Positions 1,499 through 57,896 of a stretch of 64,000 nt of DNA are shown in pieces; position 1 is the stretch's first letter; every line of letters starts with the position of its first letter. Location: positions 372,001-436,000 of the forward strand of contig NZ_OZ034994.1 in assembly GCF_964031045.1 (NCBI RefSeq), read 5' to 3'. Below the pieces are notes generated by a model. It was not told the DNA's origin and ran no database searches. It saw only the letters and a program-made list of their open reading frames with translations. Source of the DNA: Spiroplasma endosymbiont of Aspidapion aeneum (GTDB lineage: Bacteria; Bacillota_I; Bacilli_A; Mycoplasmatales; Mycoplasmataceae). A program made the translations under genes and the position numbers.

Positions 1499-4436
1499 TA
1501 AAAAAATTAATGATATTATTGAGTTCAATTAGTTTATTTGCACCATCAACAACTATGTTAGTTCTTGTTCTAAAGTAAAAAATCAACAACAAAAAGTGAT
1601 GTCAAATTTGAAAAATCAGATTACATTGTTATGGTTGGAGGAACAGTTATCGTTAATGTTGCAAATTTTGCAGATTTAAAAAAAGGTGGGTACACTAAAA
1701 ATTGTAGTGTTGTTATTGATAATTCTGCAATAGCAAAATTTGTTGATACACAAGCAAATGAAACTAATAAAAATTACCAAACACTTCAAATTAGTGAAAT
1801 TGGGGTAGGAACTACAAAAGTAACAGCTAAATTTACTAATTTGGAAACCATAGATGTTGAAGAAGGAACATTCAATATTACTATTATGTCTTTTTTACAA
1901 TATAAAGTTAGTTGAGATAAAGGTACAAAAGCAATTGACACACTAAAAACGAGAATAAAAGTGGAAATCTATATAATTATCAAGAATTTGTAAAAATGAA
2001 CTTTAAAAATTTTTCAATTAATATGAAATCAGAAGATGAAGGTAGTACAGATATTAATTACTACAAGGTTGCGAAATTGAAGATACTGGAGATATATACC
2101 TTAATATTAACTATTTACAATTGCCAGCTAATAATACCAATGAACCATACACTTTTGGAACAGTTACTTTTACATTATTAAACACCTTTGCAAATTACAA
2201 ATCAAATGAAGGACATATTTTATTCACTTCTTTTGGGGAGTGCAAAGTTTTGAAATAGAAAAAAAGATCCTAATAAGGATATTGATTTGATGGATAATGC
2301 GGGACTTGATTTTACTATTACTTTTAAATCTATTATTAATATTAACGATATCCAATCAGAGTCACCAAAAATAACTTTCGGTGGCGATGAAATTTAAAGC
2401 AACTCCAAGTCATTCTCCATGGTCAGACATCAAATCTTTTACTTTTAATATTAAATTTAAAGCCCCGTTGATAAGTTATGCATCAGGAAATATTACAATA
2501 GATATTCGTTTTAAATCAGGTTCTATAGTTTATTATGCAAATCAAAGTTTTTACATACATTACATACAGAGTGAACCGTGGAGATCAATTTGATACTCCC
2601 TCAGATAATGACACAACATATACTAGTAAATATTCTACTAACGCATTTAGTGATTGGAATGTAGAAAACCCCAAAGCCCAATCTATAACTATTACAACAC
2701 CAGCCAATTTAGATGCCATCACAAAATATGGATATAAATATAAAGATACATTAACAAAAGCAGTTGGTTCTTCTGCGGATGATGATACAGATTATTATAG
2801 TTGAAATAATCTAAAAACCCTTGATCTTAAAAATGCAGATAAATCTAAAATCCTTAAAAACTTAGATTCAAAAACATCATTTTCAAAAATAAATGCTTTT
2901 TCAATTAATAACATTTCAGTTGTTGATGATAACAATTTAACTTTAAATATTAATAAGCTACCAGAAAAAGTTACAACCCCGGGAACAATAAATTTTGTTT
3001 CTAGATTTTATGATAAGGTTGGAAATGTATGTTATGCAAAGGCGATTTTAAATTATACAGATTCAAATGAGTTTCCTTCTAACAATTTAAAATTTACAAG
3101 AGGTTCAATTACGTATGTTGGTCAAGATGGACCAACAAATCAAGGAGAAACATTATCTAAATCAATTTATTTAACAGATGAAGATCTTTCTTTTGAATCA
3201 TTTATTATTTCTGCTAATGTTAATAGCAAACTAGAATATTAACAATATCAAGTTATAATCCAGATATATTAGTATTTTAAAATAATTTAGAAAAAAAGAT
3301 AATAATTATCATATTAAAATGAAAGTTGTTTGTCAACAAGAAAAAGATATAGAACAGGGTAAAGTAACATTAACACTTAATTTTGCAGATGTTAAAATTT
3401 CTTTTACATTCGATATTTATTATGGAACATATGTTGGAAAAGATGCTAGTTCGGGAAATTATGTAACGTCAAACACAGAAACTTCTGGTTCTACAAATTA
3501 CTTTGTTAGTAAAAATGCTTCGAATAGAGGATTGATGTTAGATATTCATACATTCATAATATAGATAGTGCTCCTAATTTAGAATTTGCTGATGGTTATA
3601 ATTATTTTGGTAGTGAATCACCATTTAAATATAATAATGAGACAAATATGTTTGGAACTGTTACTTTTGATGGAGATATAAACGTAACCGGACGAGGAGT
3701 TATTTTTGTCACATATGCAAACATTATTTATGCAAACATCTTGTTTAAAGTAAATGTTAATTATACTGCAAATAACGACAAGTCTTTAGAAGCGTGTGGT
3801 GTTATAAGTGAACAATTTGGAAACAATAAATTTAATGCTACAAGAATATCAGAAGACAAAGAAATCAAATTTAATAAAGATGTTAATATATATGCATCTG
3901 CAAATGTTGGTGATGGTGTTTTTTTATTAGTATAATTATAATAGGCATCATTGGTCAGGTGAATGTTGCTGGTTCTGTAAATATCGGTTAAAATGACGGT
4001 GATTCTTCTTTAGTTGTTCCAAAAGATGTTGGAATTATTTTTTCAAAAAACTCTTGTACATTACCAAATACAGGAATTAATAATCTTAAAGGCTTAACTA
4101 TTAATGGGTCTGCAAGTATAATTGATAAAACTGATACCATAAATTATGAAAATAGTGCTATAATTTGTAATTGTAATAGGTTTTATTTTCCAGATGCAAC
4201 CATAGATATTAAGGAAGAAGCCAGGTTTGATTCAAATGGAACACCTGGGCCGCTAATTTTATCTATCTCATTTCCATCAGGTTCTGGTGATATTTTTGTA
4301 ATTAAAGAGGTTAAGGTTGGCTCTTTATTTGTACACGATATTAATACTATTGTTGCCAAATTACAAACAGGTGATTTTGCACCTTTTAAAATTCCAGTTA
4401 CAATTGTTTATTTTCATAACGATATCTCGCCATGAA
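1499..4436 (+). pseudogene. Decayed surface lipoprotein paralogue B
   Basis: This region follows the intact lipoprotein at 5191-8190 from signal peptide to C-terminus but is broken many times. The start codon position holds ATA (1498-1500 area) instead of ATG although the same GGGAG ribosome-binding context precedes it. The lipobox region carries a one-base deletion, so the Ala-Ser-Cys motif is lost. Further frameshifts and true stops (TAG near 2256, TAA near 3240, TAG near 3563, TAA near 3935) split it into fragments at 1631-1915, 1996-2181, 2381-2593, 2535-2804, 3319-3564 and 3648-3935. The 3' end is diverged and has lost the C-terminal motif. It is not expected to give a full protein but could act as a sequence reservoir for recombination with its neighbours; that is inference. 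Confidence 0.88.
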
Positions 4437-5190
4437 TGTATTGATCGTTAACTACATATACGTATCAGTATTGATCTAATCTACGTTACCTAAAATTTTT
4501 TAAAATTAAAAATGTATTATTTAATTATTGTTTAATGTATCTTAATCTTTAATTTAAAATGATTATAAGATAATAATAGAAGGAAAAGAATATTAATTAA
4601 TTACAGTTATAGTGTGTATAATTATGTTAAAATATTATCTATTTTTTCTATATAGAAATTTATAATACCCTCGAATATACAATTTAGTGATCTAGAATAA
4701 CGTGTAATTAAGTTTAGATAGATGTATTGTATATTTTTTTATAATAAAAATTAGCAATAAAAATTTTCTCAATAAAATTATAATGTAAAAGTCTATTACA
4801 ATATTTTGATATTAAAAAATAACTATATGATAATTTTTCTAGATTGCAAGAAAAAGCTTATAATTATTATGATAATATTATTATTGTTTCTTAAATGCAA
4901 TATAATATATATTAATTTTAGAATAGGATTGTACTCTATTAATATAGTAAAACACTATATAATTATATGATATAAAGAATATTTATTAATTTTTATAAAA
5001 AAAATTTGCATATTCACTCTATATTATCTTTGTTATAATTTTTTGTAAAAATTTGACATACATAGAAACCGATGGATTATAATATAGGTAGTTAGTTTTA
5101 TCAACACTCTTTTATTATGATTTATTATACTATAACAATTTATAAACAAATATATTTTATATAAAAAAATAGATTATGGGAGTTTAAGAA
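4437..5190. other. AT-rich intergenic region upstream of lipoprotein C
   Basis: About 750 bases of very AT-rich DNA with no open frame that looks coding. The only recognisable element is a promoter-like pair near 5053-5083. No repeat array or RNA gene was recognised. Confidence 0.5.
5053..5083 (+). promoter_or_regulatory. Candidate promoter of lipoprotein C
   Basis: TTGACA at 5053-5058 and TATAAT at 5078-5083 are both perfect consensus hexamers, but the spacer is 19 bases, longer than the usual 17. The predicted leader before the ATG at 5191 is about 100 bases. Confidence 0.5.
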
Positions 5191-8190
5191 ATGAAAAAAT
5201 TAATGATATTATTGAGTTCGATTAGTTTATTTGCTCCATCAACAACTATGTTAGCATCTTGTTCTAAAGCAAAAAACCCCGAAAAAGAAGTAAAAAATGA
5301 TGTTAAATTTGAAAAATCAGATTACACTGTTACTATTGGGGGAACAGTTAGTGTTAATATTGCAAATTTTGCAGATTTAGAAAAGGGCGGATATACTAAA
5401 AATTGTAGTGTTGTTATAGATAATTCTGCAATTGCAAAATTTGTTGATACACAAGCAAATGAAACTAATAAAAATTACCAAACACTTCAAATCAGTGGAA
5501 TTGGTGATGGAACTACAAAAGTAACAGTTAAATTTACAAATTTAACAACTGTAGATGTTGAAGAAGGAACATTTAATATAAGTGTTAGGGATTTTTCACA
5601 ATATAAAGTTAGTTGAGATACTGATAAAAAAACAATTGACCCACTTAAACCTGAAATAAAAGTAGGAAATCTATCTAATTATCAAGAATTTGTAAAAATG
5701 AACTTTAAAAATTTTTCAATTAATATGAAATCGGAAGATGAAAATAGTATAGACATTAATTTTTTGTTGAATGGTTGTGATATTAAAGATAATGGAGATA
5801 TATATCTTAATGTTAACTACTCACAATTGCCAAAATTAGAGGAAGGTCAAGAAGATTACAAACTTGGTATAGTTACTTTTACATTATTAAATACATCCGC
5901 AAACTACACATCAAACACTGGAGATATTTCCTTTAATCCTTTTGAGAAAGTTAAAAGGTTTTCAATAACACCAAAAGTTTCTAAAAAGGATATTAATTTG
6001 GAGGAAAGTGCAGGTTTTGATTTTATTGTTACTTTTGACACTGATATTCCTTTTAACGATATTCAAACAGAGGCTGCTAAGCCAAAAATAACTTTCAGTG
6101 GTGGTAAAGACCCAGATTTTATAGCAACTTCAAGTTATTCTCCACAATCAGACAGCAAATCTTTTACTCTTAATATTAAATTTAAAACTCCATCGATAAG
6201 TTACGCATCGGGTAATATTACAATAGATATTCGTTTTAAATCAGGCATAACAGTTTATTATGCAAATCAAAGTTTTAAATACATTGCGCATAGAGTAAGT
6301 GCAGGAGATCAATTTGATACTCCCTCAGATGCTCAAACAGGGTATACTAGTAAATATCCATCATCTTCTAAATTTAGTGATTGGCAAACAGAAACACCCA
6401 ATGCCCAAGCTATAACTATTACAACATCAACTAATTTAGATGCAATTACAAAAGCTGGATATAAATATAAAGATACATTAACAATTGCAGGTGATTCTCC
6501 TACAGATGATAATACAGATTATTATAGTTGAAATAATCTTAAGACCCTTGATCTTAAAAAATCAGAAAATGCAAAAATATTTAAAGGCTTAGATTCAAAA
6601 ATATCATTTTCAAAAATAACAGCTTTTTCAATTGATAACATCTCAGTTGTTGATGATAGTAATTTAATTTTAAATATTAATAAGTTAACAAATAAGGTTG
6701 CTGACGATGGAATAATCCATTTTGTTTCTAGATTTTTTGATGATGTTGGAAATGTATGTTGTGCAACAGCGATTTTTAATTATACAAAATCAAAACCTAT
6801 ACCCGCTAATAATGTAACATTTACAAGAGGTTTAATTCCGTATGCTGGCCAAGATGGCTCAACAAATCAAGGAGAAACATTATCTAAATCAATTCATTTA
6901 ACAGATGAAGATCTTTCTTTTGACTCATTTAGTGTTTCTGCTGATGATAATGCTAAACTAGAAGGTGCTACAATATCAAGTGATAAAACAGATATATTAG
7001 CAGTTGAAAATAATTTAGAAAAAAAAGCTGATGGATATCATATTAAAATGAAGCTTATTGGTCAAAAAGGAAAAGACGTAGAACAAGGTAAAGTAACATT
7101 AACACTTACAAGTGTTGTAAAAAGTTTTACATTAGATATTTATTATGGAACATACGTTGGAAAAGATGCTAGTTCAGGAAATTATGCAATTTCAAACAAC
7201 CAAACTTCTGACTCTATAAATTATTTTGTTAGTAAAAATGCTACAAATAGGTCAATTGATGTTTATTATTCAACCACATATAAAGTAGACAGTGCCCCTA
7301 ATTTAGAATTTGCCGATGGTTACAATTACTCTGGTAGTGAGTCACCATTTAAATTTCATGATGCACAAAATATGGTAGGGGATGTTACCTTTGATGGCGA
7401 TATAAATGTAACTGGAAGAGGGGTTATTTCCGCTTCTTGAGCAAACAAGATTTATGGAAACGTATTATTTAAAGGAAATGTTAATTATACTGCAAATAGT
7501 GATAATTCTTCTGAATCATCTGGTGTTATAAGTGAACAATATGGTGATTGACAAGCTAATAGTGTAAGAATATCGGAAAATAAAGAAATTCATTTTATGA
7601 ATAACGTTAAAATACATACATCTATGGTTGTTGGGGCGGGTGTTGGATTTATAAATACAATTACAACAGGTATTATTGGTCAAGTGAACGTTGAAGGTTC
7701 TGTTGAACTTAATTCAGATTATACATTTACACCAAAATCAGTTGGAATTATATTTTCAAAAAGCTCATCTTTAGAGAATCCGTTGGGATTTGATAATCTT
7801 AAGGGTTTAAAAATTGAAAAAGATGCAAAAATAATTGATACTGGCAATTCAACTAATGTTAATAATAGTGGTATAATTTCTAATAATGATGAGTTTTATT
7901 CTCCGGATGCAACTATAGATATTAAAGGAGAAGCTAGTTATAAATTTCCTGGAAAATCTGGACCCCTAATTTCATCTATATCAAATACTTCTAACACAGA
8001 AAAAGTTTTTGCAATTAAAGAGGTTAACGTTGGTTCTTCATCCTTTAACAACAATGATATTGTTGTTAAATTACAAACTGGCGCTGGAAGTGTTTCTGAT
8101 TTTACAGTTAAAATTGGAGGAAAACTTTCAAATTTTGATTCTTATAGATACTCATCGTTAAAAACATTTACATTTGACCAATGGAACTAG
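5191..8190 (+). CDS. Large surface lipoprotein (paralogue C, intact, 999 aa)
   Basis: A continuous 999-codon frame with TGA read as Trp at 5614, 6529, 7438 and 7549. The N-terminus has a lysine-containing start, a hydrophobic core and a lipobox Leu-Ala-Ser-Cys with Cys24 as the expected lipidation site, so the mature protein should be anchored to the outer face of the membrane. After the lipobox a charged linker leads into an Ig-like (BIG2-like) segment around residues 40-140, then long beta-rich Ser/Asn/Thr-rich regions without membrane segments. The start is preceded by GGGAG at 5178-5182. It is the only undamaged member of a three-copy tandem family (1-1143, 1499-4436). The role is unknown; surface exposure and tandem copies point to adhesion or antigenic diversity (inference). 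Confidence 0.9.
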
Positions 8191-11078: not shown

Positions 11079-12476
11079 ATGAACAAAAATAAATTTCCAG
11101 ATAATTTTTATTGAGGAGCATCAACTAGCGCATATCAATGTGAAGGTGGATGAAATGAAGATGGAAAAACACCAGGTATAAACGATATTATAGAAAACAC
11201 ACCCCAAAATTCAGAAATATCTGATTTTAAAATTGCTTCTGATCATTATCATCGATGAAAAGAAGATGTGGCTTTAATGGCAGAAATGGGACTAAAAATG
11301 TACAGGTTCTCAATTTCTTGACCAAGAATAAACCCAGCTCAAGGTGTATATAATGAAAAGGGTTTAAAATTTTATGACGACCTAATTGATGAACTAAAGA
11401 AAAATAATATTGAACCGTTAGTAACAATGTTTCACTTTGACACACCAATATGATTACAGGATATGGGTGGTTGGGCAAATAGAATTGCCATTGATGAATA
11501 TTATAAATATTGTGAGGTTTTGCTAAAAAGATACTCTAAAAAAGTAAAATATTGGCAAACAATAAACGAGCAAAATATGTATGTTTTAGCAGCGGCAGTT
11601 ATTTCTAAAACCCCAACCCAAGCAAAAGATGCCTGACAAGGTAATCACCATATGAATCTTGGTCAAGTAAAAGTTATAAAATTATGCCATCAAATAACAG
11701 ATTGTAAAATTGGTCCCGCACCTAATATATCAGCAGTTTATCATGAAACAAGTAATCCAGAAGACAAAATTGCAGCTCAAACATTAGATGCAATCAGAAA
11801 TTGAATGTTTTTAGACCCATTATGTTATGGAAGATATAATTCTCTTGCAGTTAATTACCTAAAAAGCAAAGATTTAATGTTTAAAATTGAAAAAGGGGAT
11901 TTAGAACTTTTAAAAGACCCTATGTCAAGACCAGACTTTATTGCAAACAATTATTACTGTTCTACAACAGTTAGAAAACCAAATGATGAAGATTTAAAAA
12001 TCGAAAAAACTGGTGACCAACATAACATCAAATCATCTTTTGGTGCATTTGCACAAACAAAAAATAAGTTTTTAAAAACAACTCAATTTGGTTGAGAAAT
12101 AGACCCTATTGGTTTTAGAATCACATTAAGAGATGTTTGAGATAGATATCATTTACCAATTGTGATTACTGAATGTGGAATTGGATGTAGGGAAAAATTA
12201 GATAAGGATGGTAAAATTCACGATCAATATCGAATTGATTTTTATGAAAGTTATTTAAAAGAATTGGCAATAACAATTAATGAGGGAGTTGAAGTCTTTG
12301 GCTTTAATCCATGAAGTTGCTTTGACCTTGTTTCTACACACGAAGGAATGGAAAAACGATATGGATTTATTTATGTAGATCGCGGAGAATTTGATCTTAG
12401 AACTCTAAATCGCTACAAAAAGGATAGTTTTTTCTGATACAAAGAATTGATTAAGAATAATGGTAGCAACTTATAA
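11079..12476 (+). CDS. bglA: 6-phospho-beta-glucosidase (GH1)
   Basis: A 465-residue family 1 glycosidase, a normal length, that would cleave phosphorylated beta-glucosides delivered by the adjoining PTS into glucose 6-phosphate and a free sugar or aglycone. Seen: the N-terminal Trp-Gly-Ala-Ser-Thr-Ser-Ala-Tyr-Gln segment, the acid/base motif Thr-Ile-Asn-Glu, the nucleophile motif Ile-Thr-Glu, and the C-terminal Lys-Arg-Tyr-Gly-Phe-Ile-Tyr-Val-Asp typical of phospho-glycosidases, where it helps bind the sugar phosphate. The nucleophile motif reads Thr-Glu-Cys-Gly rather than the usual Thr-Glu-Asn-Gly. GAGAGG precedes the ATG. Cytoplasmic; in one operon with celB and IIB. Confidence 0.93.
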
Positions 12477-42901: not shown

Positions 42902-42956
42902 TGGTAAAATCAATTTAACACCATAGTATTTTTATTTTATTATGGTTGTTTTTTAA
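42902..42956 (+). promoter_or_regulatory. Extended -10 promoter and leader hairpin of the variable lipoprotein
   Basis: TGGTAAAAT (42902-42910) is an extended -10 box. About seven bases later AACACCATA (42917-42925) can pair with TATGGTTGTT (about 42941-42950, one bulge), followed by a T run, before the ribosome-binding site AAGGAG at 42978-42983. This may be a terminator of the upstream unit or an attenuator-like leader of the lipoprotein mRNA. Confidence 0.4.
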
Positions 42957-42996: not shown

Positions 42997-44742
42997 ATGA
43001 GAAAATTACTAAGTATATTAAGTGTAATTGGAATATCTGGGTCAACATTATCAGCGGTTGATAATGTTGTTTCATGTTCTAAAAATAATTCAGGATTTGC
43101 AAAAGATGAGTATAAAAATTACTTTTCTATACCAGATGCATTTTCAAACTATAATTCAACAAAAGATGGTAATTCTTGTTCATGAACAATTCATACAGTT
43201 AATGAAAGTCAAGAAATAACTGTTAAAAAAGCTGGATTTCTTTTAGCAAACTCAACAGATGATGTTGTTAAAACAAAAAAACCAATACTTGTCTCTAAAC
43301 CGGGAAAAAACTCAACATCAACTGGTGTTGCATTTGGAGATGACAAAAAAGCAAAAGCAAGTGTTTTAATGGGTGCTAAGGTTTTAATCACAGGAAAAGA
43401 TACTGAACTTGTAATTGGGTCAACTGTGGCAGTTGCTGCCGCTGATGGAAAAACAGATGTTACTACTATCACAGGTTCAATTACAAAAGCTGGAGAATTA
43501 ACACTTACAACAACAGATAAAACATTACCAGGAACAATAGAATTAAGTGTTACAGTTACACCCCCAGCATCATCAACAGATGATGCGGCTACACCTATTA
43601 CATATGGTGTTGCTCTAACAATTTTAAAAGATGATTCTGTTAATTTTTCAACTGATAAAACAGCTGTTAGTGTAGGTGACAAATTGATATTAAAAAATAA
43701 TGATATTTCTGCTGGGACATTATCTTTATCATTTTTTACCTCTAAAGATGATAAAACTTCAGCATTTAAGCTCGACGCCTATGTTTCAAATGATACATAT
43801 CTACAATTCTTTTCTGCTGGAGAACAACACAAAATTGATGCGGATGGTAAAGACACAGCCACAGATCTAACAAAAGACTTTACAGCCAAATCTTCTAGTT
43901 CTGGAACATCAAAAAGTACTGAAGGATTTAATGCTGGGGCTGATTATGCAAAAATGACTTTAGCAAAAGGTGTATCTTCAATTGATATAGATATTTCTGG
44001 AGACCAACCATCTACTTTTATACCAGATAACATTTCTATTGGTACAAGTAAATCTGCAACTCTTTCTGGAGCAGAAGTAAAAACTGGTGATGATAAAGGA
44101 AAAGTTGTTACTTGAAAAAGTAAAGCTAAATCAGGAGATACAAAAATATCTATTAATCTTGCAAATGATTTATCTTTAAACTTAGAAAAAACAAATGATA
44201 TCTTTATAGCTTTTGATAATAAACAACAAAATAATATTAAAGCAGAGAAAGACAAACCATTAAACATAGGTGTAACTTTTAATCATGGAAATGATTCTTA
44301 TAATCTTGCAATTCAGTATTCAGGTGATGTAAATGGTCTAGGATTTGTTTCTTTAGTTGATGCTGATAATAAATATCCATCATATTCAGCTAATACAGAT
44401 GGTACTGGATCAGTATTGAATGTGAATGGAATAAGTAAAGGGGATCTAGAAATTGAATTTAAATTAGACCCTACTAATTTTACAGATATGAAGCTTGGAT
44501 GATTTGATAATTCTACAGCTATTGATACAGTTAAATCTGGAGCTACTGATATTGCAAAAGCTGCGTCTAAGGATGCTGCATCCACACCAACTGCAAATAT
44601 CTTTAAAGATGCATCCACACCTATTTCTGTTAAAGTAAGCCTTAAAGAAAGTGCTGATCAATTTGTTGTATACATGACAATAGCGGGAACTCGATCAGGA
44701 AGCCCTGCAACTTATACTATAAAAATTGTTGTAGGAGCCTAA
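42997..44742 (+). CDS. Surface lipoprotein with switchable C-terminal domain (expressed copy)
   Basis: A 581-residue lipoprotein. Signal peptide of the spiroplasmal type with Val-Val-Ser-Cys (Cys27) as lipobox. The mature part is Ser/Thr/Lys/Asp-rich with Ig-like beta character and no membrane segments. Base composition is richer in GC than the neighbours in places (many GCT, ACA and GGA codons). Bases 43770-44426 (about residues 258-476) are repeated perfectly in inverted orientation at 45299-45955. The last 105 residues (477-581) are unique to this copy. The start is preceded by AAGGAG; two Trp are TGA. A surface antigen with alternative C-termini is inferred; the ligand is unknown. Confidence 0.9.
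43770..44426 (+). repeat. Long perfect inverted repeat, copy 1 (inside lipoprotein gene)
   Basis: About 657 bases that pair, base for base in every part inspected, with 45299-45955 in inverted orientation (position x matches 89725 minus x). The repeat begins at GCTCGACGCC and ends at GAATGTGAA. It covers residues 258-476 of the lipoprotein. Long perfect inverted repeats of this kind are substrates for homologous inversion. Confidence 0.93.
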
Positions 44743-44778
44743 TATAAACATATTAATTTATATTTAGGAAATTAAACT

Positions 44779-44821
44779 ACACAAAACAAAAAATTGCCAT
44801 TGGCAATTTTTTGTTTTGTGT
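44779..44821. terminator. Terminator of the expressed lipoprotein gene
   Basis: Perfect 20-bp stem from ACACAAAACA to GTTTTGTGT with a three-base loop ATT, 37 bases after the stop codon. The right arm carries a T run. Confidence 0.85.
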
Positions 44822-44850
44822 AAACATATTCCTTCTTGCAAAAAGATAAA

Positions 44851-44888
44851 ACAAACTGAAAATTGCCAGCGGGCAATTTTTAGTTTGT
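44851..44888. terminator. Terminator of the silent lipoprotein cassette
   Basis: 17-bp stem (one G-T pair) starting ACAAACTGAAAATTGCC with loop AGCG. It stands near the minus-strand stop codon at 44956 and shares the ATTGCC/GGCAAT core with the neighbouring terminator, as if duplicated with the cassette. Confidence 0.8.
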
Positions 44889-44955
44889 TTGGTATTGATC
44901 ATAGAATTTAATTACATACTATTCTATAATCAGTGATATATTGATACTTACTATA

Positions 44956-45955
44956 CTATTTACTATTTATTTTAATAGTTATGTTATATTTAAAATCAGT
45001 TCCTGCTTTATGTCCACTTAACATTACATACATAGCATATGGTGCCTCTTTTTTTGCTATATTTATGTTAATAGGCAAGTTAGTATCTGCTTGAATATCC
45101 ATTGAAGATGGTTTTGTATAAATTGATGTTGGAGTACCTTTTTCATCATCAGATATTGCTATCGCCTTATTATCAGTACCATATACAACTGTGCTATCTG
45201 TTTTTTTCGCGCTTACATATCATAATAGACTTATATCTTTGTATGTATCATCAATATCTAAGTTAAAAGTTACTTTTTGGTCTTCTGTTTCGGATTGGTT
45301 CACATTCAATACTGATCCAGTACCATCTGTATTAGCTGAATATGATGGATATTTATTATCAGCATCAACTAAAGAAACAAATCCTAGACCATTTACATCA
45401 CCTGAATACTGAATTGCAAGATTATAAGAATCATTTCCATGATTAAAAGTTACACCTATGTTTAATGGTTTGTCTTTCTCTGCTTTAATATTATTTTGTT
45501 GTTTATTATCAAAAGCTATAAAGATATCATTTGTTTTTTCTAAGTTTAAAGATAAATCATTTGCAAGATTAATAGATATTTTTGTATCTCCTGATTTAGC
45601 TTTACTTTTTCAAGTAACAACTTTTCCTTTATCATCACCAGTTTTTACTTCTGCTCCAGAAAGAGTTGCAGATTTACTTGTACCAATAGAAATGTTATCT
45701 GGTATAAAAGTAGATGGTTGGTCTCCAGAAATATCTATATCAATTGAAGATACACCTTTTGCTAAAGTCATTTTTGCATAATCAGCCCCAGCATTAAATC
45801 CTTCAGTACTTTTTGATGTTCCAGAACTAGAAGATTTGGCTGTAAAGTCTTTTGTTAGATCTGTGGCTGTGTCTTTACCATCCGCATCAATTTTGTGTTG
45901 TTCTCCAGCAGAAAAGAATTGTAGATATGTATCATTTGAAACATAGGCGTCGAGC
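44956..45955 (-). pseudogene. Silent lipoprotein cassette with alternative C-terminus
   Basis: Reads in frame on the minus strand from 45955 to the TAG at 44956-44958 but has no start codon, signal peptide or promoter. Bases 45955-45299 equal residues 258-476 of the expressed lipoprotein. The following 114 residues differ completely in sequence from its C-terminus (they begin Asn-Gln-Ser-Glu-Thr-Glu-Asp and end Ile-Lys-Ile-Asn-Ser-Lys) but keep a similar end pattern: a Tyr-Val-Met or Tyr-Met-Thr strand, Gly, then a final Ile-rich strand. One Trp is TGA. It becomes expressible if the 872-bp segment inverts. It stops abruptly at 45955, 16 bases from the conjugation genes. Confidence 0.88.
45299..45955 (-). 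repeat. Long perfect inverted repeat, copy 2 (silent cassette)
   Basis: Inverted partner of 43770-44426. It ends at GGCGTCGAGC (45955), beyond which similarity stops. Confidence 0.93.
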
Positions 45956-45970
45956 GACTTTTTCTGGTGC

Positions 45971-46474
45971 CTATTTTTCCTCCTTTACAAAATCTTTAAT
46001 ATTTATTTGGTTAAAATCAGAATCAAGATCTTTTTTAAGTTGACTAACTCATGGACTATCTTCTGTTAATTGTAAACTTTCTTTTGATTCTAAAAAGAAA
46101 ATATTATCAATTATTTTTGATTCTGCTAAACAATTTAAAAGTAGGTTTATTTTCTTTTCGTTTACAATACTGTGTTTGATAAGATTTAAAAATCTTAAAT
46201 CAAGACTTTTTAATAAAAAGTTTTTATATTTATTTCCAGTTTCATCGATAAATTCAAATAAATTTTTTTTAGTTGTTTCTTCTTCTACTAATAGTTGTTC
46301 CATTCCTAAATAAAGAGCATGTTCAATAGCGTTTTGCTGGGTAGCAAAACGACTATTTTTTACAATATTTAAAAAACGACTATAAAGCTCATATGTGCTT
46401 TCATTTGTTATATTTATTGTTACACGAATATTTTTTGATTTTTCGTGTTCAATAAATTCATCTCTGTTTTTCAT
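45971..46474 (-). CDS. Small protein of conjugation module, ribbon-helix-helix-like
   Basis: A 167-residue charged protein. Residues 15-60 have the look of a ribbon-helix-helix DNA-binding domain: a strand Ile-Arg-Val-Thr-Ile-Asn-Ile, then two helices ending in Ala-Ile-Glu-His-Ala-Leu. The rest is helical. Such proteins often assist relaxases at the transfer origin or repress the transfer operon. It is the last gene of the minus-strand module, 1 base after the VirB4 stop. One Trp is TGA. Role inferred. Confidence 0.62.
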
Positions 46475-46475
46475 G

Positions 46476-49067
46476 TTATAATAATTCCTTTCTTTCTATA
46501 TCTAAAAGATCTACGTTCATAAATACTCTTTCTAGTCCATTATTAATTAATAGCATTTGACCCATTTTAAAGTTTAATATTTTTTCACACTCATTTTGTG
46601 TTATGGGGTTTGTATTCTTATATAGGTTAATTAAGTTATTCATATCATCTGGTTGAAGATTGAATATTGATGTATATTGAATATTATTTAATAAACCAGT
46701 TGTTTGTTTTTTTATTGATTCATCTCCTAAAAAGTCATTTAAGTTTTGGGTTATTAAAATAATCCCAGAGTTATATTTTCTAATTCTTTTTGTTAGTTGG
46801 TAAATAAAATTTAAAATAATAGGGTTTTTAGAATCTGTAAAAAGATAAGATTCATCAATAACAAATATGGTTTGTTTGTTAGTATTTATTCTTGATCTTT
46901 TAATTTGGTTATAAATATAGTTAATTAATAAATATATTATTGCATTTAAAGTATTTGTCCCATAAGATTCATACATTCCCAATGTTGACACATTGGTAAA
47001 TGAATTATCTAGAGTTGATAAAGAACTTGGAAGTGAAAATATATAATAATATTTTTTATCCTTTGTAAAGTCAGATTCAATAATATCTAATAGGGTAATG
47101 AACTCTTCGTTATCTTGATAATGAACTTTGTATTTTTTCATTATTTCATATAGTTTTATAAATGTTGGTCATTCATTTGGTTTAATTGAATCAAAGACAT
47201 TTATTTTAAAGTTAATATTATTGTAAAGAAATGCAACCATATTTTTAAATATAAGCAATGTTCTTAAATTCATCTCAGGATATAATATTTTTATTCACTC
47301 CTCAATTATATTTATCTGACTAGCAATAAGTTTTTTGTTTGTATCTAAGATGTTGTCGTATTCTTCTTCTGTGTAAGTGTGTCATATTTGGAAAGGGTTT
47401 ATTATTCCGCTACGAGAAGATTTATTTATATCTATTATACTACCATCAAATTTTTTACACAAATTAGAATATTCATTTTCTGGGTCTAGGATAATTATGT
47501 TTTTATTTGTTGCACAATGAAATGTAACTAATTTTTTAACAAAAGTAGTTTTACCGTTTCCACTAGAACCAAATACAATCATGTTATGATTTCTTCTATT
47601 TTCCGTTTTTACAAATTGGTCAAAAATAATAGGTGTTTTTCCACATTCTTCTCTTCCTAAATAACAACCTTTCTCATCCAATAGCTGAGATTCTATAAAA
47701 GGAAAAGAGTTTGATAACATTGTACTTGTTAAAAGTATCTTTTCATTTGAAAGACTTGCTCTTAAATTTGCAAGTTTCATAAACCTAAAAGCTTCTTGTT
47801 GCTTAAATTGTAAACTATTAAATTTCATATTATTTGATTTACAAATATCATTTAAAATATATTTTTTATTATTTAATTCATCAATTGATGTACCATAATT
47901 TATAAATATTAAATTTGTTGATAAAATCTTTTCCTGGTTTAATGAAACACTCTTTATAAGTTCACTACATTCAATAATGTCTTGTTCTAATTTTGCTATT
48001 TCTGTTTGATTTTTTTGAGACAACATTGTTAATGAAGTTTTTAAATTTAATAAACGATTATTTAAATTTTTTTCAATTTGATTTTTATTTGTTTTACGAC
48101 AACTCATGATTAAATTAGTGTCAGAAATTATAAAGGGCCATAACCAACATGTTGGAGTATTAAGCTCAATTGAGTCTATTGTATTAAAATTAATATATAA
48201 ACCACCAGATTTAATATAGTTAGATTTTATTTTGTATTCTTGATATTCAAATAAAGAAATTAAACTTTGTTCAAAAGTATCAATGGTTTTTCTATCATAG
48301 TCACTCGCGCTTGGGTCATGGATATTTTTTATTAAGTTTACAAACTTATATTTATCAATTATATTTGCTTTTAAATTGTTTCCCATCAGCTTAGAAGATA
48401 TTTGACTATTTAACATTTCAAATTCATCAATTTTGTTGAAACAAATTACTATATAATAGGCAAAACCAATAGCGTTATTATTTATTTGCCCTTCATTTGA
48501 GTTTTGATTTTTTAGCACATTTTTAATAAAATTTTTGGCAAATTCTCCTCCATTTTTTCCAGAATTATTTAAATAATGTGAGTTATCAATAAAACTTATT
48601 TTTTCATCTACCTTTATTATATAAAAATGATTGTCTATTTCTTCTAAAAACTTTTTTAATATGTTTATTGCTTGCTGTTGTTCTTCAAAATTTTTAGATA
48701 AAATATTATATCCATCTATTTTATAACAACACATATATGATATACCATCCTTAGTTTTATTAGCTAAAACATTTATATTGTCAGAAGTGAGTATTTTAAG
48801 GTTATTTTTACTTTTTTTGAGTAGGTGAGTTATGTATTTAAAAATTACAAAAATATGATAGTAAAGGGATCTTTCATTATATTTTATTAACCCACAACTT
48901 AGAGTTGACATCGTAAATAATGAAACAAGTATTGCTATAAAAGTATTTTTATTTTTTAATAACACAAATAATAATGATGATATACAAATAAAACAAATAA
49001 GGCAAATAAAGTCTACAAGAGTAAGATAGTTATTTATTTTTAGACGAGATCTTTTTTTGTTAAACAT
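46476..49067 (-). CDS. virB4: VirB4/TraE-type conjugation ATPase
   Basis: An 863-residue protein. A hydrophobic N-terminus (about residues 10-65, two membrane segments) precedes the ATPase, reminiscent of VirB3-VirB4 fusions. Walker A Gly-Ser-Ser-Gly-Asn-Gly-Lys-Thr-Thr is at residues 500-508 and Walker B Phe-Val-Ile-Asp-Glu near 738, followed by a Thr-Gln-Asn motif typical of VirB4. It powers assembly of the type IV secretion channel. Six or more Trp are TGA-encoded. The gene is followed by the RHH-like gene without a gap. Confidence 0.9.
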
Positions 49068-49076
49068 AACTATTTA

Positions 49077-50510
49077 TTACCCAACTTCACTGTCATTTTT
49101 TTTATTAAATATATTTAAAGAATTATTATATATTTTATTTAGTCTATCTAATTTCTTTTGTTCTCTTTTTACCTTGTTACTTACAATACCTTGTTTTGTC
49201 AGTGATTCAATATATTCACTTTTCTGAACTATTTTATTTTTTCAATTCATTAGGTCCTCCTTGTTTATTTTTGGTTTGTCATTGTACGTAAATACATTTT
49301 TTAAGGCATGATATGGTGTTGAAACTTTAGCTTTAAATTTATTTATTGCCTTATTTGTGTTTATATTTGGTTTGTTGATAATTAAATGGCCAATATTTGA
49401 AAGCCCATTTTTTGTTTTTATCCCAGCATTGACAATTGATGATCCAAATTTTAATACACCTGTTGGTTGAAAGTTTGATTTGTATTGTTGCGTCTTTTTA
49501 TCATAAGACACACTACCAATACCATTACCAAATCCAACCACTTTTGTGAGTTTTGATAAACTTGTACCAATTGAATTTGTAAATTTTGCGGGAATATTTA
49601 TTGCAGATAAAAAACCAGCATGTGTTTCTTGGTGGTTATAACTATTTACAAGAATATGTAATATTTTTTGTGATTGTAGGACAAAAATACTACCAGCGAG
49701 AATAAAAATGAAGATAAATATTTGTCTTTCAATGATACCAAGTGATATATTTGTAGAAATTATTGAGTTTAATAACATACAAAATATATCCATTGTTAAA
49801 ACAAAGATAACTCCTTCAAATGCGTTCTCAATTAATATATTTCTCCACTCAATTAATCTTCTTTTATTGTCAATAACAGACAAGATTGCAACAAATGGAG
49901 ATATTAAATATAAAATTATTATCTCAATAATTTTTCCAGTTATTGTAATTGAAACTTTTAATAAAGAGTAAACACATACAATTATTGCAATGAATTCTAT
50001 AAAAAAATTATAATCTGTAATATTATTTGGACATGAGTAACTAGAAACATTATGAACATTTTGATAATCAAAGTTTTTGTCACCTATATAATATAAAATA
50101 TCTGCTAGATTTGACGTTTTAAATGTAAATAGTGTATTTACAAATGAAAACGAAAAGTTCATAATCATTATTAAAAACATTATTATTTGGGGGATAAATA
50201 CAATTATAAATACCCCAAAAAGAGAATTTTTTAATGACTGAATTATTTTTTCTCGAAGATTTATTTCATCTTGTAGAGTCATGCTTATAAAATTTATAAT
50301 AAAGATAATTGATAATAAACAAATACTAGCATATGCAAATATTGAAAATATTGTTAGTAAACTTTTATTATTATCTTTTAATATATCTTTAATTAGTTGA
50401 CTATTAATATAATTAATTATTGTTGATAAGTATCCGCAAACTTGTAATGGTCCCTGAATAAAAACAAATCAAATTGTTTTTAAAAACAGTTTGTAGAGAA
50501 TATCTTCCAT
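49077..50510 (-). CDS. VirB6/TrbL-like polytopic membrane protein
   Basis: A 477-residue protein with about seven to eight membrane segments in the first 290 residues and a hydrophilic, Lys/Asn-rich C-terminal part. The start at 50510 gives an open frame through TGA codons; a shorter version from 50282 would lose the first membrane segment. Between VirB2-like and VirB4 genes this is the position of the VirB6/TrbL channel component. Family membership is inferred from topology and gene order rather than from a motif. Confidence 0.7.
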
Positions 50511-50534
50511 ATTTATATAACTCCAATATAATTG

Positions 50535-50825
50535 TTAGGATAAAATACTATGGGCCAAAATTCCACAACCAGTGGCTGCGCTACAACAAATTATAAATCC
50601 TATAATTACCCATATTATTCCATTAATTGCTTTTTGTCGTTCCTCTATGTCATTTTCACTACTTGCTTTTGCGATTTTAAAACCAATTTTAATTATAAAA
50701 AGAATTAAAATTGCTGCGACTACACTACATAAAAAAGTAGCTAATGAGGATACTCACCCTCATACATAATTAATAATTTCTGATGAATTTCAATTATTTG
50801 TTACATCTGTTAATAAACTATACAT
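50535..50825 (-). CDS. Small two-helix membrane protein, VirB2/pilin-like
   Basis: A 96-residue protein with hydrophobic segments near residues 27-50 and 68-90 separated by a short charged loop, the topology of VirB2/TrbC-type pilin or channel proteins. Three Trp are TGA-encoded, so it is invisible under the standard code. It lies 3 bases after the VirD4 stop and 24 bases before the VirB6-like start. Identity is inferred from size, topology and place. Confidence 0.6.
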
Positions 50826-50828
50826 ATT

Positions 50829-53213
50829 CTATTCTCCTTTGTTAAGTATATTTCTTTTTTCTTCTAATATTGACATCAATGAAGCATTTAGTTTTTCATA
50901 ACCAATTTTGTCTTCAGTTGTTCAATAATTTAATGGAATATCTCGAAACTGACTTATTTTTGATCTTAATATTCCTTCTTCTTTTCGAAGATATGATAAT
51001 CTATCTGCTTGTAATTTTTTTTCAATTTCTTCTTGACTCATTTTATTCATATTTTCCATATGAGCTAAAGCTTTTTGTAAATCATTACTTGCAGTTTTTG
51101 TTTCAATTTCTTTATATATATTAAAGATATCTACTCGATAATCTTGGTTAAAATTAATATAATTTCTTGTAATTTCTCAATCAAAATATTCATGTTTGAT
51201 TAAGTGTTTAAACTCTCAAACATTTTCCAACTTAACAACACATGGTCTTTTATCCACATTAATAACAATGATATTATTTAAAGTATATTCTGGTATTTGA
51301 GAAACTTCAAGGATATTTTTGGCTTCTAAATGATAGTTTGGTTTATAATCCTTTGAAAATGATATATTCGATTTGTTAATAGTCTTTTGACCACAATATT
51401 GTGAAATCATACTATTTGTTTTTATGCTAATAGATTTTAAATATTTTATTAATAAACATGCTGCCATTATTGCTTTAGAACTAGAACCATATACATGTTC
51501 TATTTGTTCTAAATCTTGAACAATGATACTTGTACATATTTTTCTAGACCTTCCAGTATTTAATAATATATCTAGGTTTTTGATTTTTGCAATATTGGCA
51601 AATTCATCAATTAAAAACATTGTTGTTCTATTCAAGGCACGATTTTTATTTCTATCTGCAGAATAATATAGAGCTCGATATAATTGACCAAGAAAAATAG
51701 ATATTATTGATTCTTTTGATTTTTCTTCTTCTGGTATTACTATAAATAAAGCCTTTGGTTTTTCTGGGTCATCAAATTTAAATATATCAATGTTATTTTC
51801 ACACAATATATTTTGTAAACTCTCTTGCAAAAATACAGTTATTTGAGTTGAAAGAATTGAAAAATATTGATCTCTAACCTTTGTTTCTGTTGTAATAATA
51901 TTTCCACATGTCAATCAAGACATGCTTTCTGGAAAATTATCATAGTGTTCTTCCATTCAAGTACAAAATTTATCTTTGTTTAATAGGGAATTTACAATAT
52001 TAAAAATATTAAATCATTTTAGATCAAAGTCTGACTTTGTATGTTCATAAACTTCTAGGTAAGCATAAATTGCTCCTTTAAGTAAATTTTGAGCACCAAT
52101 AAACCAGCTTTGATTTGCGTGTTCTTGTTGAGAAGAAATTAATGTTGATGTTATTATTTCTACCTCGTCAATAGCCTTTTGTCTAAAAATTTTTGAGTAT
52201 TGAAGGCAATTATTTTCCAAATCTTTTTTGTTTAAAAATCAAGTGCTTCTGTACTTATCAATTCATACTAGTGGGTCTTCTTCCTCTATCTCATCTAAAC
52301 ATTGATTACAGTTTAATTTGTCATGTAGGTAGCAAGAATACAGAGTTAAATAATTTTGAGCATATCCCAGCTCAAGAAATTCTTTTTCTTCAATATTTAT
52401 TTCCCTATAATTTACATACTTATCAAAGTAGTTTATTATTGGTCAAAGAATATTTCAACTCATTGATGTCTCTGGATTTTTAAAGTCAATTTTATAAATT
52501 TCATAGCCATTTGATTTTAAAATATCTCTTAGAGAATGATAAAGTTCTCCTTTTGTATCTGTTAAAACAAAATTTGGTTTATTATTTTTTATTGACTCTC
52601 TAATTGTTTTTATTGTTTTTCCTTTTTTATCTTTTATCTCCTCCTTTATAATTGTTGTTTCATCTGGTAAAATACAGTTTGCAATTACTGTTGGTTCTAC
52701 ATCTCTTTTTGTTTTACCACTACCAGTTGAACCTATTGTTATCGTGTTAACAACTTTTGTTGCATCAATTCCATTAAATGTTATTTTACCTTTTTCTATT
52801 TCGCTCCGAACAAGAAAAGAGGGTACCTGGAAATTGGGTAAATATATTTTATTGAATTCATTATAGTCTCCCTCATTTGTATGTTCATTTAAAAGTCATG
52901 AGGATGAACCATAAATTGCATCTTTTCCTTTTAATTCTAAAATCTGTTTTGTTTTCTTAACATTTGGTTTTGTATAAGATGTAAACAAGATGATAGATAT
53001 TATAGCACAGCATATGCTAATAATGATATAGTTTATTTTTAAATAAGAACAGTAATATATTACATTTTGAATACTTAAATCTTTTATTGAGGGGATATGA
53101 CCCCCTGAAGATAATTTATTATAAACAATTGCAAAATTAATAATTGCTGCCAATACAAGATCTATAATTAATATAACCGTAATTGAGACAATAATATTTA
53201 GTTTTGAACGCAT
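50829..53213 (-). CDS. traG: VirD4/TraG-type coupling protein
   Basis: A 794-residue coupling protein that brings relaxase-bound DNA to the secretion channel. Two N-terminal membrane segments (about residues 8-30 and 60-80), Walker A Gly-Ser-Thr-Gly-Ser-Gly-Lys-Thr near residue 160, and Walker B Phe-Leu-Ile-Asp-Glu-Phe-Ala-Asn near 533-540 with a downstream Gln-Asp-Leu motif are present. Large insertions with Cys pairs lie around residues 295-310 (Cys-Asn-Gln-Cys pattern). TGA = Trp at many positions; no true stop was found in the full frame. Confidence 0.9.
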
Positions 53214-53221
53214 ACATTATG

Positions 53222-54667
53222 TTACCTATCAAATGATATGTAACCCTCCATTTCTATTGCTTTTAACTTTTTTTCCAATTCCATTTCAATTTTATTTTCA
53301 AAATTAAACAATTTTTTAAATTCATGGGTGTTATTTCTACTTGTAAAATAAGATATTATTTTTTTCTCTATATTTGTTTGTAAAAGTGATAATTTATTTG
53401 CAAAACTATTTTTTAGAACTTCTGGTTCTTTATAGTAACTTAAATTTATAAATGATAAAAAAGAATTTTTTCAATTTTTATTAGAATTTACAATTTCACT
53501 TATTAAAATATCTAGTAAAATATTTTCAATTTTCTTAAAATCTTTTGAAGTAATAAAATCACTATCTAAGAATGTATCTATATTTGGTTTTTGTAATTTA
53601 TTTGTTTTTAAAAATAACTCTATTTTATTATTTTCTACTTCTTTATTTTTGACATAATCATATAAATAATTATTTGTGTCAAAAAAATTAATTAAAATTT
53701 CATAAAATAGTTCTTTAGACTGATTGTCAAAATTATCAATTGATAATTTGCTTTTATTATTAAGCGAATCATAATTTTTATAATTATGGCGAATGAACAT
53801 TAAACTTTTTTTTAAAAATATACTATTTTTATATTTTAAATCTATAAATACTTGTCTAACATCAAATCAATTTCAATCATAATCTTTTATGTTATTATTA
53901 TTTGTTAAATTTGTTTTTAAAAACCACTTTTGTTTTTCTAATGTATTTAATTTATACTGATATGCTAATTTATCACACTCTTTTCTAATTATATTTTTAA
54001 ATATATTAATATGGTCTATTTTAAACATTCCAAAATTAATATATGTGTTAATCTTATTGTTATTCTTATCTAAACCAACTAAGGTTTTTTTATCTTCTAA
54101 TATATCTAAATGAATATGAAATCCATTAGTATTTATATGAATTGCATAGTATCAAAATAAATCTTTTTCCTTTAACATATATCTTGAAAATAAATATTCT
54201 AGACTATTCTTTAATATATGATTAATATTTTTATAATTATATAATCTCGATTTTTTCACGATATAAATATTGAATCATAATATTGTTTCTCATATATTTT
54301 GATTATCATCAAGATTTTTTATCTTGTTTTTAATTCAGCTGATATTTTCTTGTCCTATTGGTCCATACTTTGTATAAATACCACTATGTTTTTCCTCCTT
54401 TTTTGATAATTCTTCTAAATATATGTAGTATTTTTCTAAGTTATTATTTTTTAGATATAAAAGTCTTTGTATATCGTCTTCTTCGATATGATAATTGAGA
54501 GCAGCTATTTCTCTGCTAATATAATCGAGATGTTTAAACTGTTTTATATATTTGTCTCTTCTTTTTTCTCCACTTTTTTGCAAATATCCACGATGATCAT
54601 AAACTCGATTAAATCTAACAATTTTAAAGATTAGATCTGTGTTGTTTTTATATTTATCAAGATACAT
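53222..54667 (-). CDS. Putative HUH relaxase
   Basis: A 481-residue Lys/Asn/Tyr-rich protein. At residues 177-190 it reads Ile-His-Ile-Asn-Thr-Asn-Gly-Phe-His184-Ile-His186-Leu-Asp, a His-hydrophobic-His metal site on a predicted beta strand, as in HUH endonucleases. Tyr residues in the first 120 could serve as nucleophile. It lies upstream of the coupling protein in the same operon, where a relaxase is expected. Sequence is otherwise unlike the common MOB families as far as can be judged by eye. It overlaps the preceding gene by one base pair of TAATG type. Confidence 0.6.
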
Positions 54668-56313
54668 TAATTTTGTAAAATAGCTTTTAAATCATCTTGA
54701 ATATAGTTTGAAAAAATATTTGCACATGATGAGAAGTAACTTTTAGATAAAGAAGAAATAGGAATTTCTTTTTTACTCTTATCTGTTATTGAATAAAATA
54801 TAAAACTAGATGGAGAATTTTCTATTTTTGTATAATCTTGATTTATTTTTCACATTTGATATGAAGTTGTTAAAACATCTGTTATATTATTTTTATTAAC
54901 TTTTCACAAGTCATTATCAGTGATATCATCAATTTTTACATCTTTAGATGAATTTGTAGATATTATTTTGTAAATATCATATTTATGAATATTATATATT
55001 GAAAATTGCAAATTACCATCGTACTCAATATATGATTGAAGGTTTTTTGCATATAAGTCTTGTAACTCATTTGCGTTGTTAGAATAAGTGTTATTGATAT
55101 TTATTTTTTTTATTAAAAACTTATTATTGTAGATATATTTTAATGTTATTGAATTTTTGATGTTAAAATAAGAAGTTATCTTTATGTTCCCATTTTTATT
55201 TGAAAATGTATCAACTAAATTATTATCTAGGGTTATAGAAAGACTCCCGTTAAATTTTTGATTTAACTTTTCTAAATTCAATATATTAATATCTACAGTT
55301 TTGCCAACTGTTACTTGTATTTGGTCGTGATCTGTTATAATATCATCTGAATTTTTAGTTGAGATATCTATAGTACTTAAAATATCCTTTCCATTTGGAA
55401 CTTTCCCAATTACTTTTACTTGGCAATTATTAAGTTTTTTACAAGAGATAATTATTTTATCCTCGACTATTTTTGCTTCAACACTGTCATCTGTGGTTGA
55501 TAGGGATAATGAAATATTATCAGCTTTTAATTCTTTAAAATTTTTAATGAAAACATTTTTTGACAATTCGTTTTCAGAAAATAAAATACTTTTTGTATCT
55601 AAGATAATAGAATTTGTGTATTTGCAATTTAAAGTAAATTCTAATTCTTGTAAAAATATATTTCTGGATGCTGTTAATTTTATTTTACAACTTCCCAAAC
55701 CTCTTTTTGTTAATGTTATATTTTGATTTGTAATCTTAAAGCTACATATTTTATAATCATCAATATCAAGTTTAAATTTATACCCATTTCTAACCATTAA
55801 CTGGTAGTTTATAATGGGAATAATAAGAGTTGTCTCCCCAGGATTTATATCATATTCACTATTAAGATTTATATTATACTCAACCAACAAAACATTTATT
55901 GTTTTTTTTATTATTTTATTGTTTTTTGAAAAACAAATATCAAAACTTGTTTTAGTTTCTGTTATTTGATTTTTATTTCATCTAACATTTATACTTGAAC
56001 TTAAAGATGGTTGTTCTACTGTAAGATTTTCATCATTATTGATTATTTTTAAGACTCAACCTTCACTTACAAACTCTAAATAATTTATTATTTGGATAGA
56101 GTCATTTCTTTTTAGTAAGGAAAGTGTTATTTGATTTTTATCAAGATTTAACAAAGGGAGACTATTATTTTTTGGTTGACCATTTGGGTCGTTTTCTTTG
56201 CCCTCTGTTTTTTTATCTTGAAGATTAAAACTTGTAGTCGAAATATAAATAGAACCAAATGATGTAAAGAGACTATCAAGACACAAGAGTGATTTTAATA
56301 GCTTTTTACTCAT
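54667..56313 (-). CDS. Secreted Ig-like protein of the conjugation module
   Basis: A 548-residue protein with an N-terminal signal-like hydrophobic stretch (about residues 5-28) but no convincing lipobox. The remainder is beta-rich with repeated 80-90-residue Ig-like (BIG2-like) patterns: Ile-Thr-Leu plus Gly-Leu-Gly-Ser-Cys-Lys-Ile, and a later Val-Thr-Val-Gly-Lys-Thr-Val-Asp-Ile, like the chromosomal lipoproteins at 5191. It could mediate cell contact in mating. It is translationally coupled to the relaxase (TAATG). Function inferred. Confidence 0.65.
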
Positions 56314-57241
56314 TGTTAAAATTAAAATCCTTTGTTATATGAGATTCTAATTCTTTATTTATTTTACTCTTTAGTTCTAATTCTTTTTCTCTAGTCGTTT
56401 TAAAGAAATTGTAGTATTTTGTAGCTAGTTTTTGCGCATCCTTAACTAAAAATTGTATTTCTTGGCTATTATAAGATAAGCCCAATTTACTACATAAATC
56501 ATAAATTTTATTTATAACAGCAACCTCTCGATATTCTGAAAGATCAATTGTTTTTTCATTTTTACTTCTATATGTAAAAACTGGTGTCATATTAGAAGCG
56601 TAAGTTGTCGCTTTTTTAATAAATTTTAATTTTTCTGTTTTATCAAATGGTAAAGCCAATAGTCCAGTGGTCATTGTCGCTTTAAATTCATCTGCTTGTT
56701 GAGATCTAGACAAAATTGGTCTATTTTTCATATTTAACGCATGGCTAACAACTATACCACCACAATCAACTGTTTTTGCAATTAAATTATCTGGTTGAAG
56801 TTTATAATCTTCAATCCCATTTTCAAGAACCAATACATAAGGAACACGATTAACAGCCAATGTTTCTGCTAAAAATTTTGAAAATGTGCTATTTGGACTT
56901 ATATATGGAATTAATTGTTGTCTTTTACATTCAGTAACAATATTTTCAACGTGTTCATAGCCATCTTGGCGAATATAATCCGAACCTTCGATTGAAATTC
57001 CTCTTTCAAAATAATTTAAAAGATTTTTATCCCCTTGAGTGAATAATAAAAAGGGGGGCTCTTTTGCATACTTTAAAGGATGACAATATTCACTTGATGT
57101 AAGTGATATATAATCATAACCTTTTGTTCAATCTTTTATTATTTCAGTTTTATTTATTTTTTCTTTTCGTTCTAAAGCATTATAGATTTTACCAAAGTCA
57201 CCTTCGTATTTTTCATTAAAATAAAGTAAGACACTATTCAT
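56306..57241 (-). CDS. DprA-like protein of the conjugation module
   Basis: A 311-residue protein. After about 60 residues it has Leu-Leu-Phe-Thr-Gln-Gly followed by a strand-Gly-Ser pattern (Ile-Ser-Ile-Glu-Gly-Ser-Asp-Tyr-Ile), then Pro-Tyr-Val-Leu-Val-Leu and Gly-Gly-Ile-Val-Val-Ser-His-Ala, the order of elements of the DprA Rossmann fold (LOG/SLOG type). DprA loads RecA on incoming single-stranded DNA. Here it may protect or process transferred DNA. Similarity is moderate. It overlaps the next gene by 8 bases. Confidence 0.55.
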
Positions 57242-57359
57242 TTGTAGTATCTCCTTTATCAATATCATAAATAAAATCTGTTGCTTCTAAATCTGTTATT
57301 AATTTTGTTATTTCTTCGTAAATATGTTTATCTACATATTTGTTTTTATATTTTTTCAT
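57234..57359 (-). CDS. Small protein, 41 aa, unknown
   Basis: A 41-residue charged protein (rich in Lys, Asp, Tyr and Ile) that begins after a perfect AGGAGG on the minus strand and overlaps the start of the DprA-like gene by 8 bases. The strong ribosome-binding site and coupling argue that it is made. No family recognised. Confidence 0.6.
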   Translation of the reverse strand: MKKYKNKYVDKHIYEEITKLITDLEATDFIYDIDKGDTTNE

Positions 57360-57378: not shown

Positions 57379-57564
57379 TTATAAATTCATACAGAAAACA
57401 TTGAAAATAAATAAAAAAGTATTCAAAATCACTAATAAAATAATCATAAAAAATACAGGAATTGATATTTCTTCTCCATATTGAATTGCAATTTGAATGT
57501 TATTAAAAAATACTATAGCTACGTTTACATGTAGATATAAATAAGATATAAAAAACTTTTTCAC
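57379..57564 (-). CDS. Small membrane protein, 61 aa
   Basis: A 61-residue protein with two hydrophobic segments (about residues 8-25 and 36-58). It starts at a GTG with AGGA 13 bases upstream, and is the first gene of the conjugation module. It may be a second pilin-like or an accessory membrane protein; nothing more can be said. Confidence 0.5.
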   Translation of the reverse strand: MKKFFISYLYLHVNVAIVFFNNIQIAIQYGEEISIPVFFMIILLVILNTFLFIFNVFCMNL

Positions 57565-57637
57565 CTATTTTATAATTCCTGTATCTGGATTTATTTGTTC
57601 CAGCCTTCTAGACAAGTAATATTGTAAACGTAGCTAT
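57515..57637. repeat. 15-bp inverted repeat at the head of the conjugation module
   Basis: ATAGCTACGTTTACA (57515-57529) and TGTAAACGTAGCTAT (57623-57637) are perfect inverted copies with a 93-base spacer. They flank the start of the first gene. Possible roles are a regulator site, an element end or part of a transfer origin. Confidence 0.6.
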
Positions 57638-57896
57638 CATTTACAAATAATAATTTGAACTAAAATTGTTATTATTTTAGCACAATATTTTTAGTAAATA
57701 CTAAAAAAAACTTTTTTTTGTTAAAAAATTATTTTTTTTTTAAAAATTATTACTTATTTAATAAAATAATTTATATTTTTTTATTTCTTAATAAGATATT
57801 TCATATTGACAAAAAAAATACCATTTCTAAAACGAAATGATATTGAAAATATAATTTATTATTATTTGATAATTTTTATAAGTCTATAATTTATTT
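57565..57896. other. Intergenic region between conjugation module and arc operon
   Basis: About 330 bases of AT-rich DNA holding the right copy of the 15-bp inverted repeat and the arc terminator at 57811-57843. No gene seen; an element boundary may lie here. Confidence 0.5.
57811..57843 (-). terminator. Terminator of the arc operon
   Basis: On the minus strand ATCATTTC pairs with GAAATGGT (one G-T pair) around a short loop, followed by eight or nine T. It lies about 55 bases after the arcC stop. Confidence 0.75.

Follow-up and report, generated by a model that had tools for sequence, protein, structure and literature searches.

A putative two-state C-terminal switch in a surface lipoprotein gene beside a conjugative element of a spiroplasma-type genome

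What does it mean when a lipoprotein gene is followed by a start-less, inverted copy of its own interior, and the two copies then run on into different C-termini? The locus was studied in a window of 64 kb, by which we mean the whole stretch of DNA that was analysed, positions 372001-436000 of a host genome consisting of a single contig of 1,209,723 bp. An earlier sequence-only reading had seen in the arrangement the architecture of an antigenic variation switch with two states, the switching itself being conjecture. We consider it somewhat probable, at roughly 60%, that the locus exchanges the C-terminal domain of a surface lipoprotein between two states, by inversion at homologous arms.

The expressed gene lies on the plus strand at 42997..44742 and encodes 581 amino acids in genetic code 4; TGA is read as tryptophan in this genome, and three such codons occur in the reading frame. 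The product carries a signal peptide and a lipobox-like VVSC motif, both judged by eye, and is presumably exposed on the surface. A consensus scan placed the best promoter-like site of the region, TTAACA-17-TATTAT with 10 of 12 matches, at 42915..42943 on the same strand, 53 nt ahead of the start codon. Shuffled sequences yield no fewer such sites, so that its position is the main argument for it. Promoter-like site, ribosome binding site and start codon are found at the intact copy only, not at the silent cassette. Pfam and PDB searches with the protein gave no match and NCBIfam a single insignificant one. Among 320 genomes of the order there was one weak N-terminal match outside its own genome, in G163, which spans residues 1-113 only, and the named genomes of GTDB r220, plasmids and IMG/VR viral contigs held no usable relative. 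Repeats of a tail-like domain within the lipoprotein were not above shuffles. Structure predictions for both copies were of low confidence, with pLDDT of 34 and 45, too low for a search by fold, and hint at beta-rich chains at most.

The left arm of the repeat (43770..44426, plus strand) encodes about residues 259-476 of the lipoprotein, and the right arm is the start-less silent cassette (45299..45955, minus strand). Together they form an exact inverted repeat of 657 nt, 100% complementary in the assembly; if short reads underlie the assembly, the perfection could partly be a consensus effect. The repeat without mismatches that had been claimed is thereby borne out over its whole length, and a chance origin is excluded. 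No other inverted repeat of at least 60 nt exists in the window, and the arm sequence has two copies in the 1.21-Mb genome, both at this locus. The spacer of 872 bp between the arms (44427..45298) is, by the geometry of the repeat, the segment that would invert.

On the minus strand the frame of the cassette is open from 45981 to a stop codon at 44956; upstream of the repeat it contains no start codon and runs into a TAA just past the repeat edge. Through the repeat the two reading frames keep a common phase. Beyond it the expressed gene continues into tail 1 (44427..44742, plus strand) with 105 residues and the cassette into tail 2 (44956..45298, minus strand) with 114, both lengths including the boundary residue. 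This is Asn in both tails, as AAT or AAC, the last two bases of the repeat being the first two of that codon. In all these points, the missing start, the common phase and the two lengths of unique tail, the sequence-only reading was accurate. Sequence comparison also shows the tails to be homologous, with 31% amino acid and 52% nucleotide identity over 97 aligned codons, and an alignment score of 105 against 30.9 (sd 5.6) for shuffles, none out of 2000 reaching 105. Judged by this alignment, the tails represent a single C-terminal domain that has diverged into two versions. Since an open frame was retained in 0.03% of the shuffles of the silent-tail DNA, and since tail 2 is homologous to tail 1, the silent tail is no accidental frame.

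The diverged tails abut on arms without any difference. Had there been no exchange, the arms would be expected to differ as much as the tails do, and they must therefore have recombined or been copied recently. Their identity looks like concerted evolution, for which inversion and conversion are both candidates. Between the tails lie a near-perfect terminator-like hairpin at 44778..44822 (-27.3 and -27.5 kcal/mol on the two strands, z -7.9 and -6.8) and a second of the same type at 44849..44890 (-24.4 and -19.1 kcal/mol, z -7.0 and -5.6). Both fold on either strand, so each tail retains a terminator-like hairpin in either orientation.

We propose that one promoter, one ribosome binding site and one 5' region (42997-43769) would drive whichever tail is attached to them. 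A homologous crossover of the RecA type at any point of the 657-bp arms would flip the 872-bp spacer, so that the expressed 5' part would continue into tail 2 and a terminator hairpin, and tail 1 would come to lie in the start-less cassette. The evidence comes from one genome assembly, in one orientation, and the occurrence of the inversion, its rate and RecA as its agent are what we infer. The genome has an intact RecA reading frame of 340 aa (PF00154 at 5e-123). With RecA intact, the site of the hsdS invertase described below absent from the locus and no serine or Piv-type enzyme found, homologous recombination is the likely mechanism, and at arms of this length also the most economical one. 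Such a RecA-dependent inversion would probably be slow compared with the dedicated switches of mycoplasmas.

A search of the genome for tyrosine recombinases gave one gene, of 238 aa, at 661 kb, which is 0.24 Mb from the lipoprotein locus and part of an hsdS locus. This recombinase is patchy within the family, being present in 11 of 60 genomes with full-length matches 55-61% identical, and in nearly all of the neighbourhoods examined it lies next to inverted hsdS genes in the company of hsdM and hsdR, short inverted repeats being present in most. This layout marks it as an invertase serving a type I restriction system with phase variation. In the host genome the locus (L125:9522-17348, G000:C1:661021-668847) comprises hsdR-hsdM-hsdS and, beyond the tyrosine recombinase, another hsdS in inverted orientation; its inverted repeats are 30-51 bp long. 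It makes up a second phase-variable locus, of the recombinase type, and the same layout recurs in several relatives (L126-L129, L132 and L133). The core of the hsdS repeats, AATAATTGACATTATTGAACC, has three exact occurrences in the genome, all at hsdS, and with up to 3 mismatches two further places, neither of them in the lipoprotein locus. Local similarity between the hsdS repeats and the lipoprotein arms was not above that of shuffles. The hsdS invertase was therefore rejected as the driver of a lipoprotein inversion, its site being missing from the locus. Searches for serine recombinases and for IS110/Piv-type enzymes succeeded in control genomes and gave none in this one, though highly divergent recombinases might escape detection. 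A second copy of the hsdS-type recombinase was seen in genome G198 (L130:2325-18515), 74% identical to the copy at the hsdS locus of that genome. It adjoins several paralogous lipoprotein genes in both orientations and resembles a vsa or vpma locus; a conserved block is common to the upstream regions of these genes, and no clear inversion site was found among them.

In relatives, the ORF that lies here at 42047 also comes after yebC, in some cases with inserted genes in between, and an inorganic pyrophosphatase is the usual next neighbour; in that place the host genome has the lipoprotein, the cassette and a conjugative element, and after them the arginine deiminase genes. The lipoprotein locus is a lineage-specific insertion beside the conjugative element. 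By comparison of the yebC proteins, the closest genomes fall into another genus of the family. The element (about 46476..57268, minus strand) contains genes for a virB4/TraE ATPase, a VirB6-like protein, a pilin, a TraG coupling protein, a weak MobP-like relaxase and a DprA-like protein. Next to it lies orf167 (45971..46474, minus strand), a conjugative-element gene with a homologue beside virB4 in L083 and ORFs at comparable places of other elements. In other elements of the family an orf167-like gene also comes after virB4, with lipoprotein genes downstream, and the lipoprotein may be cargo of the element. No sequence relative of it was found in other conjugative elements, and none of the other elements or syntenic loci examined has a similar long inverted repeat at a lipoprotein. 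Locus L092 has inverted transposase-like genes, and in a spiroplasma-type element (L093) an inverted repeat of 230 bp with 97% identity surrounds virB4 (6345-6574 and 11933-12161).

The cassette is preceded by AGGAGG in the 3' end of orf167, with no ATG after it. The end of orf167, AGGAGG-AA-AAA-TAG with the cassette in the +1 frame (45960-45990), recalls the context of programmed +1 frameshifting. The AGGAGG is more likely what is left of a ribosome binding site than a frameshift signal, and we rejected a fusion of orf167 with the cassette, as a lipoprotein domain on a protein that has no signal peptide makes little sense. Three further features of the window were observed. Just beyond the conjugative element, at 57500-57640, there is an inverted repeat, CTACGTTTACA ... 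TGTAAACGTAG, possibly a terminator or the end of the element. Within the element, between the relaxase-like and the DprA-like gene, at 54667-56313, a large secreted-looking protein is encoded that gave no Pfam or NCBIfam match. At 1-8190 a large lipoprotein gene stands in tandem; the copy at 5191-8190 is the only one that appears intact, and the two preceding ones are broken into pieces, with about 75-90% identity.

Could the locus have come about without any continuing switch? If part of the gene was recently duplicated in inverted orientation, or converted just once, the cassette would be a remnant at the junction with the conjugative element, and several observations agree with this: the locus is lineage-specific, with relatives keeping yebC, the 42047 ORF and usually the pyrophosphatase in order, the start-less cassette abuts an element gene whose ribosome binding site leads nowhere, no usable relatives of the lipoprotein were found, and one recent event would explain the perfect identity of the arms equally well. 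For a simple recent duplication of the whole 3' part the tails are however too diverged, at 52% nucleotide identity, and the silent tail of the supposed remnant is intact and coding, though it could not be expressed where it is located. We regard this explanation as rather unlikely, while giving it more weight than the following ones. Instead of taking part in inversion, the cassette could donate sequence to the expressed copy by one-way gene conversion, in the manner of vlsE or MgPa. Such a role would suit a start-less silent copy beside a single expression site in a genome with RecA. There is however a single donor only, the tails beyond the repeat share too little DNA identity to provide homology on the far side, and in the inverted layout crossing over gives inversion; a role as donor therefore seems improbable to us.

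A different possibility is that the segment is inverted by a dedicated recombinase acting at a site within the arms, either the hsdS invertase or an enzyme that escaped detection. There are precedents in mollicutes (PMC2268961, PMC3047005), such as HvsR of M. pulmonis, which uses two kinds of site, and a GC-rich 10-mer, GCTCGACGCC, coincides with the outer edge of each arm and has no other occurrence in the genome. As a dispersed recombination site this 10-mer was rejected, for it occurs only as part of the two arms. Moreover, the locus has no hsdS-type site within 3 mismatches and no similarity to one above chance, no other recombinase family was detected, and 657 bp of identity would be superfluous for a site-specific switch, all of which makes a dedicated enzyme highly improbable. 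That the inverted copy is an artefact of assembly is hardly credible, common as misassembly is at inverted repeats, since a foldback would give the same tail twice; here the inner tails are strongly different, each of them coding and without a second copy, and the outer flanks too are unique on either side. A switch by homologous recombination is the reading we favour.

Among known switches, the vsa locus of M. pulmonis, where inversion joins a constant promoter, ribosome binding site and 5' coding region to a silent lipoprotein 3' part (PMC2268961), is alike in having a constant expressed 5' region and an exchangeable silent 3' part. It differs in having several silent partners and a short site, compared with one partner and 657-bp arms here, where no linked recombinase or known site is present. 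In the mba and UU172 elements of Ureaplasma parvum, two-state inversion gives a surface protein alternative C-termini on a common N-terminus (PMC3047005); the inverted repeats there are short, of 21-51 nt, and enzymes of the Xer type are suspected. Vpma of M. agalactiae and Vsp of M. bovis are likewise phase-variable mollicute lipoproteins subject to DNA inversion, but Xer1 moves whole genes behind one promoter using sites upstream of the start codon (PMC2268961), whereas here the C-terminus alone would be exchanged. With vsa, vpma, vsp and mba the locus shares one lipoprotein expression site and an inverted start-less silent partner; no tyrosine recombinase is linked to it, and in place of a short common site there are 657 bp of identity from which the hsdS site is absent. 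For homology of the lipoprotein to Vsa, Vpma, Vsp or Mba, the 320 genomes of the order, which need not include every source species of these proteins, gave no more than the weak N-terminal match mentioned above. By analogy the locus may work like a two-gene vsa locus or the mba element, while probably standing outside the vsa family.

In the shufflon of R64 (pilV, Rci), likewise in a conjugative element, inversion determines which of several C-termini a surface protein receives (PMC11852207). That protein is a pilus tip adhesin, and the linked invertase Rci acts at short sfx sites. Here we find a lipoprotein with two possible states only and a single pair of arms, and neither the vicinity of the locus nor the element has a recombinase gene. 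Of the features expected for RecA-dependent inversion at long homologous arms, the locus has the long near-identical inverted arms and the genome an intact RecA. In the sap S-layer system of Campylobacter fetus, inversion depends on RecA and takes place between long conserved regions of the surface protein genes. Those conserved regions are at the 5' end and the cassettes are many, whereas here the conserved region is internal and there is one cassette.

As to what such a switch would serve, the architecture that was claimed for it has been strengthened by homologous diverged tails, identical arms, paired hairpins, a single promoter and start, and RecA. Immune evasion, which the term antigenic variation implies, finds no support, given the neighbourhood of a conjugative element and close relatives that are spiroplasmas, mostly associated with arthropods. 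Specificity for a ligand, a host or a mating partner would fit equally well, and escape from recognition is a further conceivable effect. It is conceivable, if improbable, that the adjoining conjugative element carries the switch as cargo and that the two-state lipoprotein sets which recipients or hosts the carrier of the element can bind. This would be a mollicute counterpart of the PilV tail switch of R64, with homologous recombination at long arms taking the place of an invertase.

If the locus does switch, a spiroplasma-type genome would carry an invertible surface lipoprotein, of which searches of open papers found none described, and the exchange of tails would be a minimal one with two states, independent of any dedicated recombinase. 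Homologous and yet diverged, the tails are well suited for asking whether inversion changes binding specificity, be it towards the host, phages or mating partners, and the recombinase-type hsdS locus of the same genome would allow the two mechanisms to be compared within one cell.
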